DNA of 64,000 nt from Formivibrio citricus. Lineage in GTDB: Bacteria; Pseudomonadota; Gammaproteobacteria; Burkholderiales; Chitinibacteraceae. Below are positions 2,871-63,709 of this stretch, piece by piece. Each line of letters starts with the position of its first letter. The first letter of the stretch is position 1. The notes beneath the pieces were generated by a model that did no database searches, was not told the origin of the DNA, and saw only the letters and a program-made list of their open reading frames with translations. Both the position numbers and the translations under genes were made by a program. The stretch is taken from assembly GCF_900115065.1 (NCBI RefSeq), contig NZ_FOVE01000019.1, positions 1 to 64,000 on the forward strand. The letters are read 5' to 3'.

Positions 2871-3784
2871 AATTCACCGTCTACCAGGATAGCCGCAAGG
2901 GCGGCCGCAAATACAATCAGGACCGGGTGGGGTATTCCTACAGCCGGGATGCGTTGCTGCTGGTCGTCGCCGACGGCATGGGCGGCCATCTGCATGGCGA
3001 AGTGGCGGCGCAGATCACGGTCGAACTGATCTGCGACCAGTTCCAGAAAAAAGCCAAGCCGGTGCTGGCGCGTCCGGCGCAGTTCCTGACCGATACGTTC
3101 AATCTGTGCCACGATGCGATCTTCAGCTATGCCGCCAACCATCACATGGTCGAGGTGCCGCGTACAACCTGTGTGGCCTGCGTGGTGCAGGACGGCATCG
3201 CCTATTGGGCGCACGTCGGTGATTCGCGCCTCTACCTCGTGCGCGGTGACAAGGTCGTCGCGCGCACGCGCGATCATTCCAAGGTGCGCAAGATGGTCGA
3301 TGCCGGTCTGATTACGCCGGAAGAGGCCAGGAACCACTCGGAAAAGAACAAGATCTACACCTGCCTGGGCGGTTTCTATCCGCCGGAAATCGAATCGGGC
3401 GGCAAGGTGGCGCTGGTCAACGGCGATAGCCTGCTGCTCTGCACGGACGGCTTCTGGGGCGAGCTCGCCGAGCACGAAATCACGCACTTTATGTCTTCAT
3501 TTCCGGTGCTTTTCGCAGTGCCGCAGCTCATGGATCGTGCCGAGATCCGCGGCGGCAAGGATGGCGACAATCTCTCGGCGCTGGCGGTCAACTGGCACGA
3601 GGACGAGAGTCCGGTCAGCAGCGAGCAGGACTTCATCTCGACGATGCGGCTCGATGCCAATACGATCAGCACGCACATCAGCCAGATGAAGTCCGGAGGC
3701 AAGCAGGAAGACGAAGTGACCGAGGACGATATCGAGAAGGCGATTGCCGAGATTCAGGCGGCGATCAGGAAATATTCGAAGTAG
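2867..3784 (+). CDS. PP2C-type protein phosphatase
   Basis: This 305-residue cytoplasmic protein has the PPM signature blocks: NQDR near residue 17, DGMGG with metal-binding Asp36, and GDSRLY. The start is placed at the ATG overlapping the kinase stop codon (ATGA); a longer in-frame reading from 2825 would lie inside the kinase gene and lacks family similarity. It would remove phosphates placed by the upstream kinase. The last ~60 residues are acidic and Lys-rich, beyond the usual PP2C core. Confidence 0.92.
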   Translation: MKFTVYQDSRKGGRKYNQDRVGYSYSRDALLLVVADGMGGHLHGEVAAQITVELICDQFQKKAKPVLARPAQFLTDTFNLCHDAIFSYAANHHMVEVPRTTCVACVVQDGIAYWAHVGDSRLYLVRGDKVVARTRDHSKVRKMVDAGLITPEEARNHSEKNKIYTCLGGFYPPEIESGGKVALVNGDSLLLCTDGFWGELAEHEITHFMSSFPVLFAVPQLMDRAEIRGGKDGDNLSALAVNWHEDESPVSSEQDFISTMRLDANTISTHISQMKSGGKQEDEVTEDDIEKAIAEIQAAIRKYSK

Positions 3785-60601: not shown

Positions 60602-60649
60602 GCACTCTATTTTGTGTCTCGTCATGGGCGAAGGCACAAGATATAGTGC
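60602..60649 (+). promoter_or_regulatory. Pair of NrdR boxes upstream of nrdD
   Basis: GCACTCTATTTTGTGT (60602-60617) and GCACAAGATATAGTGC (60634-60649) both resemble the NrdR box (ACACWATATATWGTGT). They are 32 bp apart start to start, close to the about 31 bp (three turns) typical for paired NrdR boxes, just downstream of the FNR site. NrdR would repress in the presence of (d)ATP. Confidence 0.75.
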
Positions 60650-60690: not shown

Positions 60691-62691
60691 ATGAACGGAC
60701 ACCCGCAGTATGTACTCAAGCGCGACGGCCGCGTTGTTCCATTTGACATCAAGAAGATCGCGTCAGCGCTTGCCCAAGCGGGTGCGGTGACAGGCGAGTT
60801 TGATGCCACCAAGGCCGATCGCCTGGCGCTTCTGGTCGTTGAACAATTGCCGCGGGACATTACCCCCGCCATCGAAACCATCCAGGACGTCGTCGAAGAA
60901 ACACTGCTGGGCCTGCATCACATCAAGACCGCCCGCGCCTACATCGCCTACCGCAGTCAACACACGCGCCTGCGCAACGACGTACGCACCGTGGTCGATG
61001 TCGAATCGAGCATCAACGAATACCTCGACCAATCCGACTGGCGCGTGAACGCCAACGCCAACCAGGGCTGGAGCCTGGGCGGCATGATTCTGAACACGTC
61101 GGGCAAGGTGATCGCCAACTACTGGCTGAACCACGTCTACCCGCCCGAAGTCGGCAACGCCCACCGCTGCGGCGCCGTACATATCCACGATCTCGACATG
61201 CTGTCCGGCTACTGCGCCGGCTGGTCGCTGCGCCGCCTGCTGCATGAAGGCTTCAACGGCGTGCCGGGCAAGGTCGAAGCCAAGGCGCCGAAGCACTTCT
61301 CCGCCGCCATCGGCCAGATCGTCAACTTCCTCGGTACCCTGCAGAACGAATGGGCCGGTGCGCAGGCGTTCAGCTCGTTCGATACCTACATGGCGCCGTT
61401 CGTCCGCACGGATAACCTGCAATACCATCAGGTGAAGCAGTTCATTCAGGAACTGATCTACAACCTGAATGTGCCGAGCCGCTGGGGTACCCAGACGCCG
61501 TTCACCAACCTGACTTTCGACTGGGTCTGCCCGGAAGACCTGCGCGAACAGATTCCGTATGTCGGGGGCAAGGAAATGCCGTTCACCTACGGCGACCTGC
61601 AGGCCGAAATGGACATGATCAACAAGGCCTACATCGAAGTGATGATGGAAGGCGATGCCAAGGGCCGCGTGTTCACGTTCCCGATCCCGACCTACAACAT
61701 CACCAACGATTTCCCGTGGGATCACCCGAACACCGATTTGCTGTTCGAAATGACCGCGAAATACGGCCTGCCGTACTTCCAGAACTTCCTGAATTCCGAT
61801 CTGGAACCGCAGATGGTGCGCTCGATGTGCTGCCGCCTGCAGCTTGACCTGCGCGAATTGCTGAAGCGCGGCAACGGCCTGTTCGGTTCAGCCGAACAAA
61901 CCGGGTCGCTGGGCGTGGTTACGATCAACTGCGCCCGGATTGGCTTTGAATTCAAGGGCAATGAAGCCGGCGTCTATGCCCGCATCGACGAATTGCTCGA
62001 TCTGGCGAAGCAATCGCTGGAAATCAAGCGCAAGATCGTCGAGCGCCTGATCCAGTCCGGTCTGTATCCGTATACCAAGCGTTATCTGGGGACGCTGCGC
62101 AATCACTTCTCCACGATCGGCATCAACGGCGTGAACGAGATGATCCGCAATTTCACGGACGATGCACATGACATCACCACGCCGGAAGGTCACGCGTTTG
62201 CCGTGAAGCTGCTCGACCACATTCGTGCCAAGATGACCGAATTCCAGGAAGAAACCGGCCATCTGTACAACCTGGAAGCGACCCCGGCCGAGGGCACCAC
62301 TTACCGCTTCGCCAAGGAAGACAAGAAGCGCTATCCGACCATCCTGCAAGCCGGGACTGAAGAGGCTCCGTACTACACCAACTCGTCGCAACTGCCGGTC
62401 GGCTTTAGTGACGATCCGTTTGAAGTACTGGCCAAGCAGGAAGAATTGCAGCGCAAATACACCGGCGGCACCGTGCAGCATTTGTACATGAACGAGGCCG
62501 TATCGAGCGCCGCAGCCTGCAAGCAATTGGTCAAGCGCTCGCTGGAGAAATTCCGCCTGCCGTACATCACGGTTTCGCCGACGTTCTCGATCTGCCCGAA
62601 GCACGGCTACATCTCCGGACATCACGAGTTCTGTCCGAAGTGCGACGAAGAACTGATCGCCAAGAAGAATCCGGCATCTTGCTGCAACTAA
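60691..62691 (+). CDS. nrdD: Anaerobic ribonucleoside-triphosphate reductase, catalytic subunit without glycyl-radical domain
   Basis: This 666-residue class III reductase makes dNTPs without oxygen. It begins with an ATP cone (about 5-95, YVLKRDGRVVPFDIKKI) and has the ten-stranded barrel typical of NrdD. The C-terminus has zinc ligands (ICPKHGYI, FCPKCDEE at about 635-651) and ends KKNPASCCN. The normal C-terminal glycyl-radical segment (GY...RP..FN.GK..E...R) is missing from this chain. That segment is encoded by the separate 62-residue gene 77 nt downstream, so the enzyme is split. Confidence 0.93.
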   Translation: MNGHPQYVLKRDGRVVPFDIKKIASALAQAGAVTGEFDATKADRLALLVVEQLPRDITPAIETIQDVVEETLLGLHHIKTARAYIAYRSQHTRLRNDVRTVVDVESSINEYLDQSDWRVNANANQGWSLGGMILNTSGKVIANYWLNHVYPPEVGNAHRCGAVHIHDLDMLSGYCAGWSLRRLLHEGFNGVPGKVEAKAPKHFSAAIGQIVNFLGTLQNEWAGAQAFSSFDTYMAPFVRTDNLQYHQVKQFIQELIYNLNVPSRWGTQTPFTNLTFDWVCPEDLREQIPYVGGKEMPFTYGDLQAEMDMINKAYIEVMMEGDAKGRVFTFPIPTYNITNDFPWDHPNTDLLFEMTAKYGLPYFQNFLNSDLEPQMVRSMCCRLQLDLRELLKRGNGLFGSAEQTGSLGVVTINCARIGFEFKGNEAGVYARIDELLDLAKQSLEIKRKIVERLIQSGLYPYTKRYLGTLRNHFSTIGINGVNEMIRNFTDDAHDITTPEGHAFAVKLLDHIRAKMTEFQEETGHLYNLEATPAEGTTYRFAKEDKKRYPTILQAGTEEAPYYTNSSQLPVGFSDDPFEVLAKQEELQRKYTGGTVQHLYMNEAVSSAAACKQLVKRSLEKFRLPYITVSPTFSICPKHGYISGHHEFCPKCDEELIAKKNPASCCN

Positions 62692-62768
62692 TACCAACGC
62701 AACAAATCGGGCGGAGGGGAACTTCCGCTCACGACTGGAATACCAATCAATCGACAGGAGAAATTGAA

Positions 62769-62957
62769 ATGACTGCCGTTTCCGTACAAGAAAAACCGCA
62801 AACAGCCGGCCAGACCATCCTGAAGGACGAAGAGCGTACCCGCTGTGAAGTGTGGACCCGCGTCATGGGCTACCACCGCCCGGTTTCCGCCTTCAATGTG
62901 GGTAAAAAATCCGAGTTTGCCGAGCGCAAATTCTTCAACGAGCCATGCTGCAAGTAA
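62769..62957 (+). CDS. Free-standing glycyl-radical domain of the anaerobic reductase
   Basis: This 62-residue protein carries TRCEVWTRVMGYHRPVSAF and then NVGKKSEFAERKFF, the glycyl-radical segment normally fused at the end of NrdD; Gly34 in VMGY is the predicted radical site. AGGAG lies 9 nt upstream, and the frame differs from nrdD, so it is its own gene and not a readthrough product. It ends NEPCCK, echoing the CC at the end of NrdD. It overlaps the start of nrdG by 13 nt. By analogy with GrcA (YfiD) it would dock on NrdD as a radical subunit. Confidence 0.85.
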   Translation: MTAVSVQEKPQTAGQTILKDEERTRCEVWTRVMGYHRPVSAFNVGKKSEFAERKFFNEPCCK

Positions 62958-63709
62958 GCCCCGCCTCGACTGGTCCTGACGCCACTGAGGTCCATCCCGC
63001 AAGCCCCCGCGCGCCCAAGCTCGGGGGCTTTGTGCGCTTTTCCAGTTGTGACTGGCCCGGCAAGCTCGCGGCCGTGGTCTTCATCTCCGGTTGCCCGTGG
63101 CGTTGCCGCTATTGCCACAACCCGCACCTGCAAACCCGCAGCAAGGAGCCCGGCTCTCCTTCGTGGGAGGAAGTCGTTGCCTGGCTGGAATCGCGCAAGG
63201 GTTTGCTGGACGGTCTGGTGTTCTGTGGCGGCGAGCCGCTGGCTGAGCCGCAACTGCCCGCCATGATGCAACAGGTCAACGCCATGGGCTTTGGCGTGGC
63301 GCTGCATACCGGCGGTGGCTACCCCAACCGCTTGCGCGAGTGCCTGCCTTGGGTCGATTGGGTCGGTTTCGACGTCAAGGCTCCGTTCCCGGAATACCTG
63401 CGCGTCACTTGTGCCAAGGGCAGCGGCGAAGCCGCCATCCAGTCGTTGCAGCAGGTCATCGACAGCGGGGTCGATTTCGAGTGCCGCACCACTGTCCACC
63501 CGGACTTGCTCTCCGACGCCGACCTGCTGGAAATCGGCCGGATACTGGCCGCTGCCGGCATCCACCACTATGCCCTGCAAAAATTCCGACCCCACGGCTG
63601 CGATGATGCCCAATTGCTTGCGCAAGGCATATCAAGCGATTACCCGGCAGAAAAAACGCTCGAAACGCTCCGGCAAGCCTTTGAGCATTTCACATTGCGC
63701 GCCGCCTGA
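62945..63709 (+). CDS. nrdG: Anaerobic ribonucleotide reductase activase (radical SAM)
   Basis: This 254-residue radical SAM enzyme puts the glycyl radical on the reductase. The cluster motif is CPWRCRYC (Cys50, 54, 57) with GGEP in VFCGGEPLAEP. It resembles the longer NrdG2-type activases (about 230-250 residues). The start at 62945 overlaps the glycyl-radical gene, so activase and substrate are translationally coupled. Confidence 0.93.
   Translation: MLQVSPASTGPDATEVHPASPRAPKLGGFVRFSSCDWPGKLAAVVFISGCPWRCRYCHNPHLQTRSKEPGSPSWEEVVAWLESRKGLLDGLVFCGGEPLAEPQLPAMMQQVNAMGFGVALHTGGGYPNRLRECLPWVDWVGFDVKAPFPEYLRVTCAKGSGEAAIQSLQQVIDSGVDFECRTTVHPDLLSDADLLEIGRILAAAGIHHYALQKFRPHGCDDAQLLAQGISSDYPAEKTLETLRQAFEHFTLRAA

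Follow-up and report, generated by a model that had tools for sequence, protein, structure and literature searches.

How does a class III ribonucleotide reductase (RNR) act when its catalytic chain lacks the loop that should carry the glycyl radical? This question is raised by an operon in a 64,000-nucleotide stretch of Formivibrio citricus DNA (contig NZ_FOVE01000019.1, positions 1 to 64,000 of the forward strand, called the window below). In published descriptions of class III RNRs, the domain with the glycyl radical forms the C-terminal end of the catalytic chain (PMC9669993, PMC9531940; papers cited by PMC number are drawn on in excerpt). The nrdD gene of the window encodes a large chain that ends in ...CPKHGYISGHHEFCPKCDEELIAKKNPASCCN, shortly after its zinc ribbon, and the glycyl loop is absent from this chain. 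A small gene follows after a gap of 77 nt, in a different reading frame and just ahead of the activase gene nrdG, and its 62-residue product bears ERTRCEVWTRVMGYHRPVSAFNVGKKSEFAERKFF (Table 1). Very probably, this operon encodes a class III RNR of two gene products, in which the radical subunit would be an exchangeable cartridge that is carried by viruses too.

The original prediction, made from the letters of the window, had placed these genes correctly to within a few bases. It held that nrdD ends after its zinc segment with no glycyl motif, and the 666-residue open reading frame (ORF) and its matches to NF006126 and PF13597 agree. The separate 62-residue radical gene that it described, with its own AGGAG and ATG, in another frame 77 nt further on and overlapping nrdG (by 13 nt), was present as well.

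To see how the NrdD family is divided over the two chains, we compared both products with family profiles and with the NrdD of T. maritima. Along NF006126 (PRK08270, 684 positions) the large chain occupies positions 3-656. The C-terminus of this profile sits on the second gene, since the peptide matches positions 649-682. Similarly, the large chain covers positions 2-529 of PF13597 (E 2.9e-176) and the peptide positions 532-562 (E 2.9e-8, over the cut-off), and PF13597 was the peptide's only match in Pfam-A at E<=1. Residues 104-610 of T. maritima NrdD (4coi) align with the large chain (E 1.3e-30) and residues 612-645 with the peptide, the latter weakly when taken alone (E 0.82). The break therefore falls between the zinc ribbon and the radical loop, and a single division point is shared by all three alignments. 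Gly34 of the peptide aligns with Gly621, the radical glycine of T. maritima NrdD (PMC4493059). The product of nrdG scored 190 bits against TIGR02495, for which the cut-off is 131.

Homologues of the peptide were found in 31 of 61 genomes (that of F. citricus included), which rules out a chance ORF. We also searched plasmids, with 7 of 29 records examined, and scanned GTDB genomes with the peptide; the scan matched at least 589 stretches, at least 574 of which encode a relative, and the best 80 were taken. Together with a further locus set, these searches gave 127 distinct loci (a count that merges two unrecognised loci, L134 and L137), which were sorted by script into 118 split (our own included), 3 fused and 6 unclassified. 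As the loci had been chosen by likeness to the peptide, the split type is over-represented among them. In the six unclassified loci the large chain lies outside the stretch or a motif differs; on inspection, G269 was split and G173 fused, nrdD lay apart in G043 and on another contig in G835, G025 was an orphan copy and G836 an orphan. Split loci beyond Pseudomonadota comprised five from Omnitrophota, one contig titled Chloroflexota and one Campylobacterota plasmid, and the split form also occurs in complete plasmid records.

In a phylum sample of 398 genomes, NrdDs of the family exceeded the cut-off in 16; judged by match ranges, and for G269 by a closer look, 13 of these are split and 3 fused. 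A census of the class (369 genomes) found this NrdD type in 33, of which 28 were split, four fused (G660, G762, G087 and G173, where one open frame spans the profile) and one unclear (G771, with a partial large match and no peptide found); the large chain is in pieces in a few census genomes (G725, G748). The original prediction had judged the split genuine rather than a frameshift, had proposed a search of relatives for an adjacent small radical gene and would have yielded to a peptide that is always fused elsewhere. Such relatives were found, and the 118 split loci and 28 of 33 class genomes point the opposite way from fusion.

The split loci are variable in layout and constant in content. 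The gap between the two genes has a median of 41 nt, with extremes of -20 and 549 nt, and frame offsets 0, 1 and 2 are found in 32, 48 and 36 of 116 loci. ATG starts 115 of the 116 peptide genes with an assigned start, by a script that favoured starts with a ribosome-binding site; two of the 118 split loci have no recognised start. The peptide is under purifying selection in cells and viruses alike, with a pN/pS of 0.176 over its 38-codon core (66 independent cell pairs) and of 0.225 over the viral cores (28 viral pairs). The Cys-Cys pair that the original prediction noticed at the end of both chains is real in the window (CCN and CCK), but we rejected it as a general feature: only 23 large and 4 small chains of the 118 split loci end in this way.

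The nrdD and peptide genes are independent of each other. In the nearest relative, also Formivibrio (L041), a 99-residue ORF intervenes between them (positions 3188-3487; its product contains cysteines). The peptide gene and nrdG lie 8-9 kb away from nrdD in G043 (L168); G025 has one complete operon plus an additional peptide-nrdG pair with no nrdD beside it; and in a metagenome-assembled genome (MAG) of the Holosporaceae, G835, nrdD and the peptide gene are on separate contigs, with nrdG near the latter. In all three the peptide keeps company with the activase and not with the barrel. An additional peptide gene in G704 (L222:3803-3991, minus strand) adjoins genes for SSB, RecT and an RNR large subunit, in a cluster that also holds a WGR-like protein (just below the cut-off) and has no nrdG nearby; nrdD and a second peptide gene are found elsewhere in that genome. 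The setting of the additional copy is prophage-like.

These data bear on three explanations in which the two parts belong to one chain. One possibility is that a lone frameshift, an assembly error or a decaying pseudogene broke a normal nrdD in a single genome. The peptide does correspond to the family C-terminus, as expected of a broken gene, and G589 has an apparent nrdD remnant at a contig end. However, 117 other distinct loci share the split, nearly all with their own starts, and the split is present in complete plasmid records with purifying selection on the peptide; the homologues refute this explanation, and its probability is minimal. It could also be speculated that programmed frameshifting, bypassing or readthrough joins both parts, as the genes are close and ordered in most loci. 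This is most improbable, and we rejected it on the free variation of frame and gap length among split loci. An ORF (L041) or 8-9 kb (G043) can moreover separate the two genes, and the peptide gene starts with an ATG and a ribosome-binding site of its own. The RNA of the gap between nrdD and the peptide gene folded no better than shuffles (z -0.96), which speaks against recoding and led us to reject an RNA element in the 77-nt gap.

Another explanation is that an intron or intein once split nrdD and that splicing rejoins the parts, as in some phages: six split nrdD genes are on record from phages, and some of them contain an intron or intein (PMC3653736). Here, 77 nt is too short for an intein or a self-splicing intron, nrdD and the peptide gene of the window locus have no endonuclease gene between them, and the peptide has its own start codon. 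With no room left in the gap, splicing was rejected as next to impossible. The split genes of cultured phages likewise leave nrdD in pieces; in the excerpt of that report the splits arise by mobile elements or unexplained breakage, and no free radical peptide is mentioned. Genes split by such elements have an intron, intein or endonuclease at the break, and the gap in the window holds none of these.

A two-chain enzyme is thus the reading that we prefer. All the parts of the one-chain NrdD of T. maritima (4coi, 4u3e) and T4 (1h78) are found in the operon (ATP-cone, barrel, finger-loop cysteine, zinc ribbon, glycyl loop and NrdG), a likeness drawn by sequence comparison alone; the operon differs in encoding the glycyl loop by a gene of its own, with the break at T. 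maritima 610/612. In the proposed enzyme, NrdD would contribute the allosteric cone, the catalytic barrel, the finger-loop cysteines and the zinc ribbon, and the peptide would add the glycyl-radical loop, which an ordinary NrdD has at its C-terminal end. The peptide would dock into the open NrdD barrel in place of the ordinary C-terminal strand, NrdG of the same operon would activate the docked peptide by placing the radical on Gly34, and the radical would then move to a finger-loop cysteine, so that the complex might reduce nucleotides as the one-chain enzyme does. Because oxygen cuts the radical strand, a separate strand could be replaced without remaking the large chain; the analogy of pyruvate formate-lyase (PFL) with YfiD and T4 Y06I suggests such replacement after cleavage. 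Orphan cellular copies and free phage peptides would be extra cartridges for the host NrdD. The sequence data establish the structure, homology and conservation of the genes, their separability, their presence in viruses and the selection on the peptide; docking, the radical, enzyme activity, exchange and any gain for the phage are inferred from these data.

The original prediction had compared the arrangement to GrcA, and the comparison holds for the working principle and fails for descent. GrcA/YfiD of E. coli and Y06I of phage T4 are likewise small, free glycyl-radical loops, phage-borne too, and like them the peptide would be expected to replace an oxygen-cut strand. Unlike GrcA/YfiD (IPR011140), it descends from NrdD and not from the PFL C-terminus (PF13597 being its only family), and its partner, the NrdD large chain, itself lacks a glycyl loop, unlike PFL, the partner of GrcA. 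Because it is the sole glycyl strand of its NrdD in the host operon, the peptide would be a constitutive subunit and not merely a spare. In the class II reductase NrdJab of P. aeruginosa, the catalytic chain is reportedly divided over two parts as well; this enzyme is of another RNR class, is broken at a different point and uses no glycyl radical.

Only YfiD and Y06I have been validated as spare parts, both for PFL, and others were thought possible (PMC8683613). Our data bear on that paper's question of spare parts for glycyl-radical enzymes beyond PFL; if the wider reading given below, of a mobile cartridge, is true, no earlier family of glycyl-radical spare parts would be known for any enzyme except PFL. 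With two chains, the radical strand could be added, removed, labelled or mutated independently of the barrel, and NrdG activation and radical transfer would become directly testable. In the open literature we found no account of an NrdD whose glycyl loop is split off; most subscription papers lay outside that search, and a prior mention is possible. NCBI annotation names the small gene nrdD without comment, and elsewhere it is "hypothetical"; studies of "nrdDG" may therefore overlook a 60-residue subunit. The nrdD-nrdG region of the C. necator H16 megaplasmid pHG1 is of the split form, and NrdDG of this strain is essential for complete denitrification according to the C. metallidurans genome paper (PMC2864759). 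The same paper lists nrdDG of C. metallidurans as Rmet_5137 and Rmet_5139, skipping the number between; in the DNA, the peptide gene lies between nrdD and nrdG.

The peptide is also encoded by viruses. An IMG/VR scan with the peptide alignment gave 144 relatives, and the best 80 loci, which encode 67 distinct proteins, were taken. Large NrdD and NrdG were found in none of the 80, searched up to 6 kb around and less at contig ends; a lone NrdG match in L300 had an E of 0.25. As a control, the same search on 93 cellular loci recovered NrdD in 89 and NrdG in 91, the misses being loci without the gene. When 35 of the 80 records (mostly the longer ones), which may be fragments, were searched whole, no large NrdD, no NrdG2 and no class I or II RNR was found, and PF13597 matched by its radical end only. 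Ten hand-chosen neighbours in seven viral loci match phage families (tail protein or fibre, tape measure, integrase, virion protein with a weak match, helicase, replication initiation, endolysin, head-tail or portal, and ATPase), and an integrase gene of L298 overlaps at its end with the peptide gene. The viral peptides match the C-terminal part of phrog_4132, a family of unknown function. Search patterns themselves demanded part of the motif in the 38-residue core; the first Arg, Glu and Arg, which no pattern demanded, are invariant in 66 distinct viral cores.

Six viral peptides (L272, L278, L283, L303, L304 and L309, two of them alike) have an N-terminal extension with four cysteines, three of which were demanded by the pattern while the fourth is invariant in the five that were aligned. 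These forms may have a zinc site of their own, and look as if zinc ribbon and radical loop had travelled together.

We give an even chance to a wider reading, in which the radical strand of class III RNR is a mobile, interchangeable cartridge: a separate subunit in bacteria, and carried alone, often as the only reductase gene, by at least one virus of archaea and by many phages that are unrelated to one another, which would use it to activate, repair or take over the host NrdD. This reading offers a possible role for viral proteins whose function is unknown and, if true, would place phrog_4132 in the phage arm of the spare-part family. The viral copies could instead act against host NrdD or NrdG. 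On this alternative, which concerns phages only, the free peptide would not serve catalysis and would instead block host NrdD or use up NrdG, as an inhibitor or decoy. Disturbance of the host's nucleotide metabolism is common among phages, and the 35 records searched whole hold no other RNR gene, hence a need for deoxyribonucleoside triphosphates is unproved in these viruses. This alternative is rather unlikely, as the three outer core residues are invariant in the 66 distinct viral cores (from the best-scoring 80 of 144 loci) and, of 20 other viral contigs with a large chain, 16 have the peptide gene beside it.

Besides the possibly fragmentary viral records, several observations weigh against our preferred reading of a two-chain enzyme with an exchangeable radical subunit. 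A Succinivibrio MAG (G836, L120) has the peptide and, by a PF13597 search of the MAG, no large chain; the peptide possibly lies on a viral stretch, or the MAG is incomplete. Viruses are not solely carriers of lone peptides: scans with other patterns found a large chain of this type in 20 viral loci, and the 16 with the peptide alongside include 13 with no nrdG in the stretch. The fused form is retained in 4 of 33 class genomes, and the split is therefore not required. A rapid tree of 52 rows, from which the radical segment had been removed, supports neither fission first nor fusion first, as only 10 of its 49 branches are well supported. It comprised 42 of the 117 split rows (some selected by hand, others for diversity), each of the 6 fused rows of the type and 4 of 7 outgroup-like rows; in it, the fused forms are not one clade and take 4 changes for 6 rows. 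We found no biochemistry on the peptide in the open literature. Finally, four tblastn queries against 50,697 reference phage records returned, among the matches examined, a single free form, in ANMV-1, and it belongs to another NrdD lineage.

ANMV-1, a virus of an uncultured archaeon (KP703175), encodes this form as a free 144-residue protein (L343:2180-2614) in which CHDC and CPKC pairs precede YSRIVGYLRPVNQWNKGK; it is annotated as anaerobic ribonucleoside triphosphate reductase. Across the whole 38,465-base record, PF13597 matched only at positions 519-562, in this protein, and no large NrdD was found. Free radical domains therefore occur in at least two NrdD lineages. The matches in MT835493 and PQ006092 were fused, full-length forms; further matches were to Gordonia phage Gmala1 (E 0.8) and Providencia phage PSTCR7lys (E 0.6). 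The fused NrdD of MT835493 (L342:1000-3432) has an 810-residue open frame that extends beyond the glycyl loop, with a CPNC stretch that looks glutaredoxin- or thioredoxin-like by eye. Among the IMG/VR loci with a large chain, L324-L334 and L341 hold a split nrdD large chain and the peptide gene with no nrdG in the stretch, and L338 has the gene order nrdD-nrdG-peptide.

Table 1. Features of the split nrdD operon in the F. citricus window
Feature	Position	Strand	Remarks
FNR/ANR/DNR-like box TTGACAACCATCAA	60586..60599	+	precedes nrdD; sole TTGA[CT]N4[AG]TCAA match in the 64-kb window
NrdR-like box 1 (GCACTCTATTTTGTGT)	60602..60617	+	matches 13/16 consensus positions
NrdR-like box 2 (GCACAAGATATAGTGC)	60634..60649	+	32 bp from box 1
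nrdD large chain, 666 residues	60691..62691	+	TAA stop; ATP-cone, barrel, finger loop, zinc ribbon; without glycyl loop
SMCCR finger loop of large chain	residues 378-382 (Cys380, Cys381)		by motif; invariant in 8 aligned rows
Zinc ribbon of large chain	Cys635, His638, Cys648, Cys651		predicted by motif; invariant in 8 aligned rows
AGGAG ribosome-binding site of peptide gene	62756..62760	+	8 nt before ATG; read from sequence
Free-standing glycyl-radical peptide gene, 62 residues	62769..62957	+	ATG at 62769; stop ends at 62957
Codon of Gly34 (VMGY), presumed radical glycine	62868..62870	+	aligned to T. maritima NrdD Gly621
nrdG activase, NrdG2 type (TIGR02495)	62945..63709	+	13-nt overlap with peptide gene

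The boxes in Table 1 were scored against what we take to be the FNR-type and NrdR-type consensus sequences; the two NrdR-like boxes are the only sites in the window that reach 13/16. A search with PADLOC gave no match for three proteins, and a role as a defence gene was rejected on this result.

The large chain has the double-cysteine finger loop of thioredoxin-type NrdD2 (SMCCR). This motif is kept in 183 of 184 recognised large chains, counted by a script that required [CG]CR and with overlapping loci counted more than once; the exception is the one-chain NrdD of F. citricus itself. MGCR and MCCR are the two dominant class III finger-loop motifs, the former linked to formate and the latter possibly to formate or thioredoxin, and the Met of SMCCR is found in most double-cysteine forms (PMC9669993). 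The one-chain protein, a second class III NrdD of the same genome (contig 29:73713-75485, minus strand; L001), has the single-cysteine loop MGCR, compared with MCCR in the split NrdD. A NrdR-like box matching 14/16 positions lies ahead of its gene, and a nrdG-like gene, named by eye from the sequence, follows it.

Three further loci differ in gene content or motif. One with the split form, in a 0.9-Mb genome (L171:2160-2345, minus strand), has the altered loop SRSMGFIRPV. L226 holds RNR-like ORFs followed by an nrdD remnant at the contig end. On an Azospira plasmid (L039), the split operon lies between the two genes of a class I RNR, in the order class I alpha, nrdD, peptide, nrdG and class I beta.

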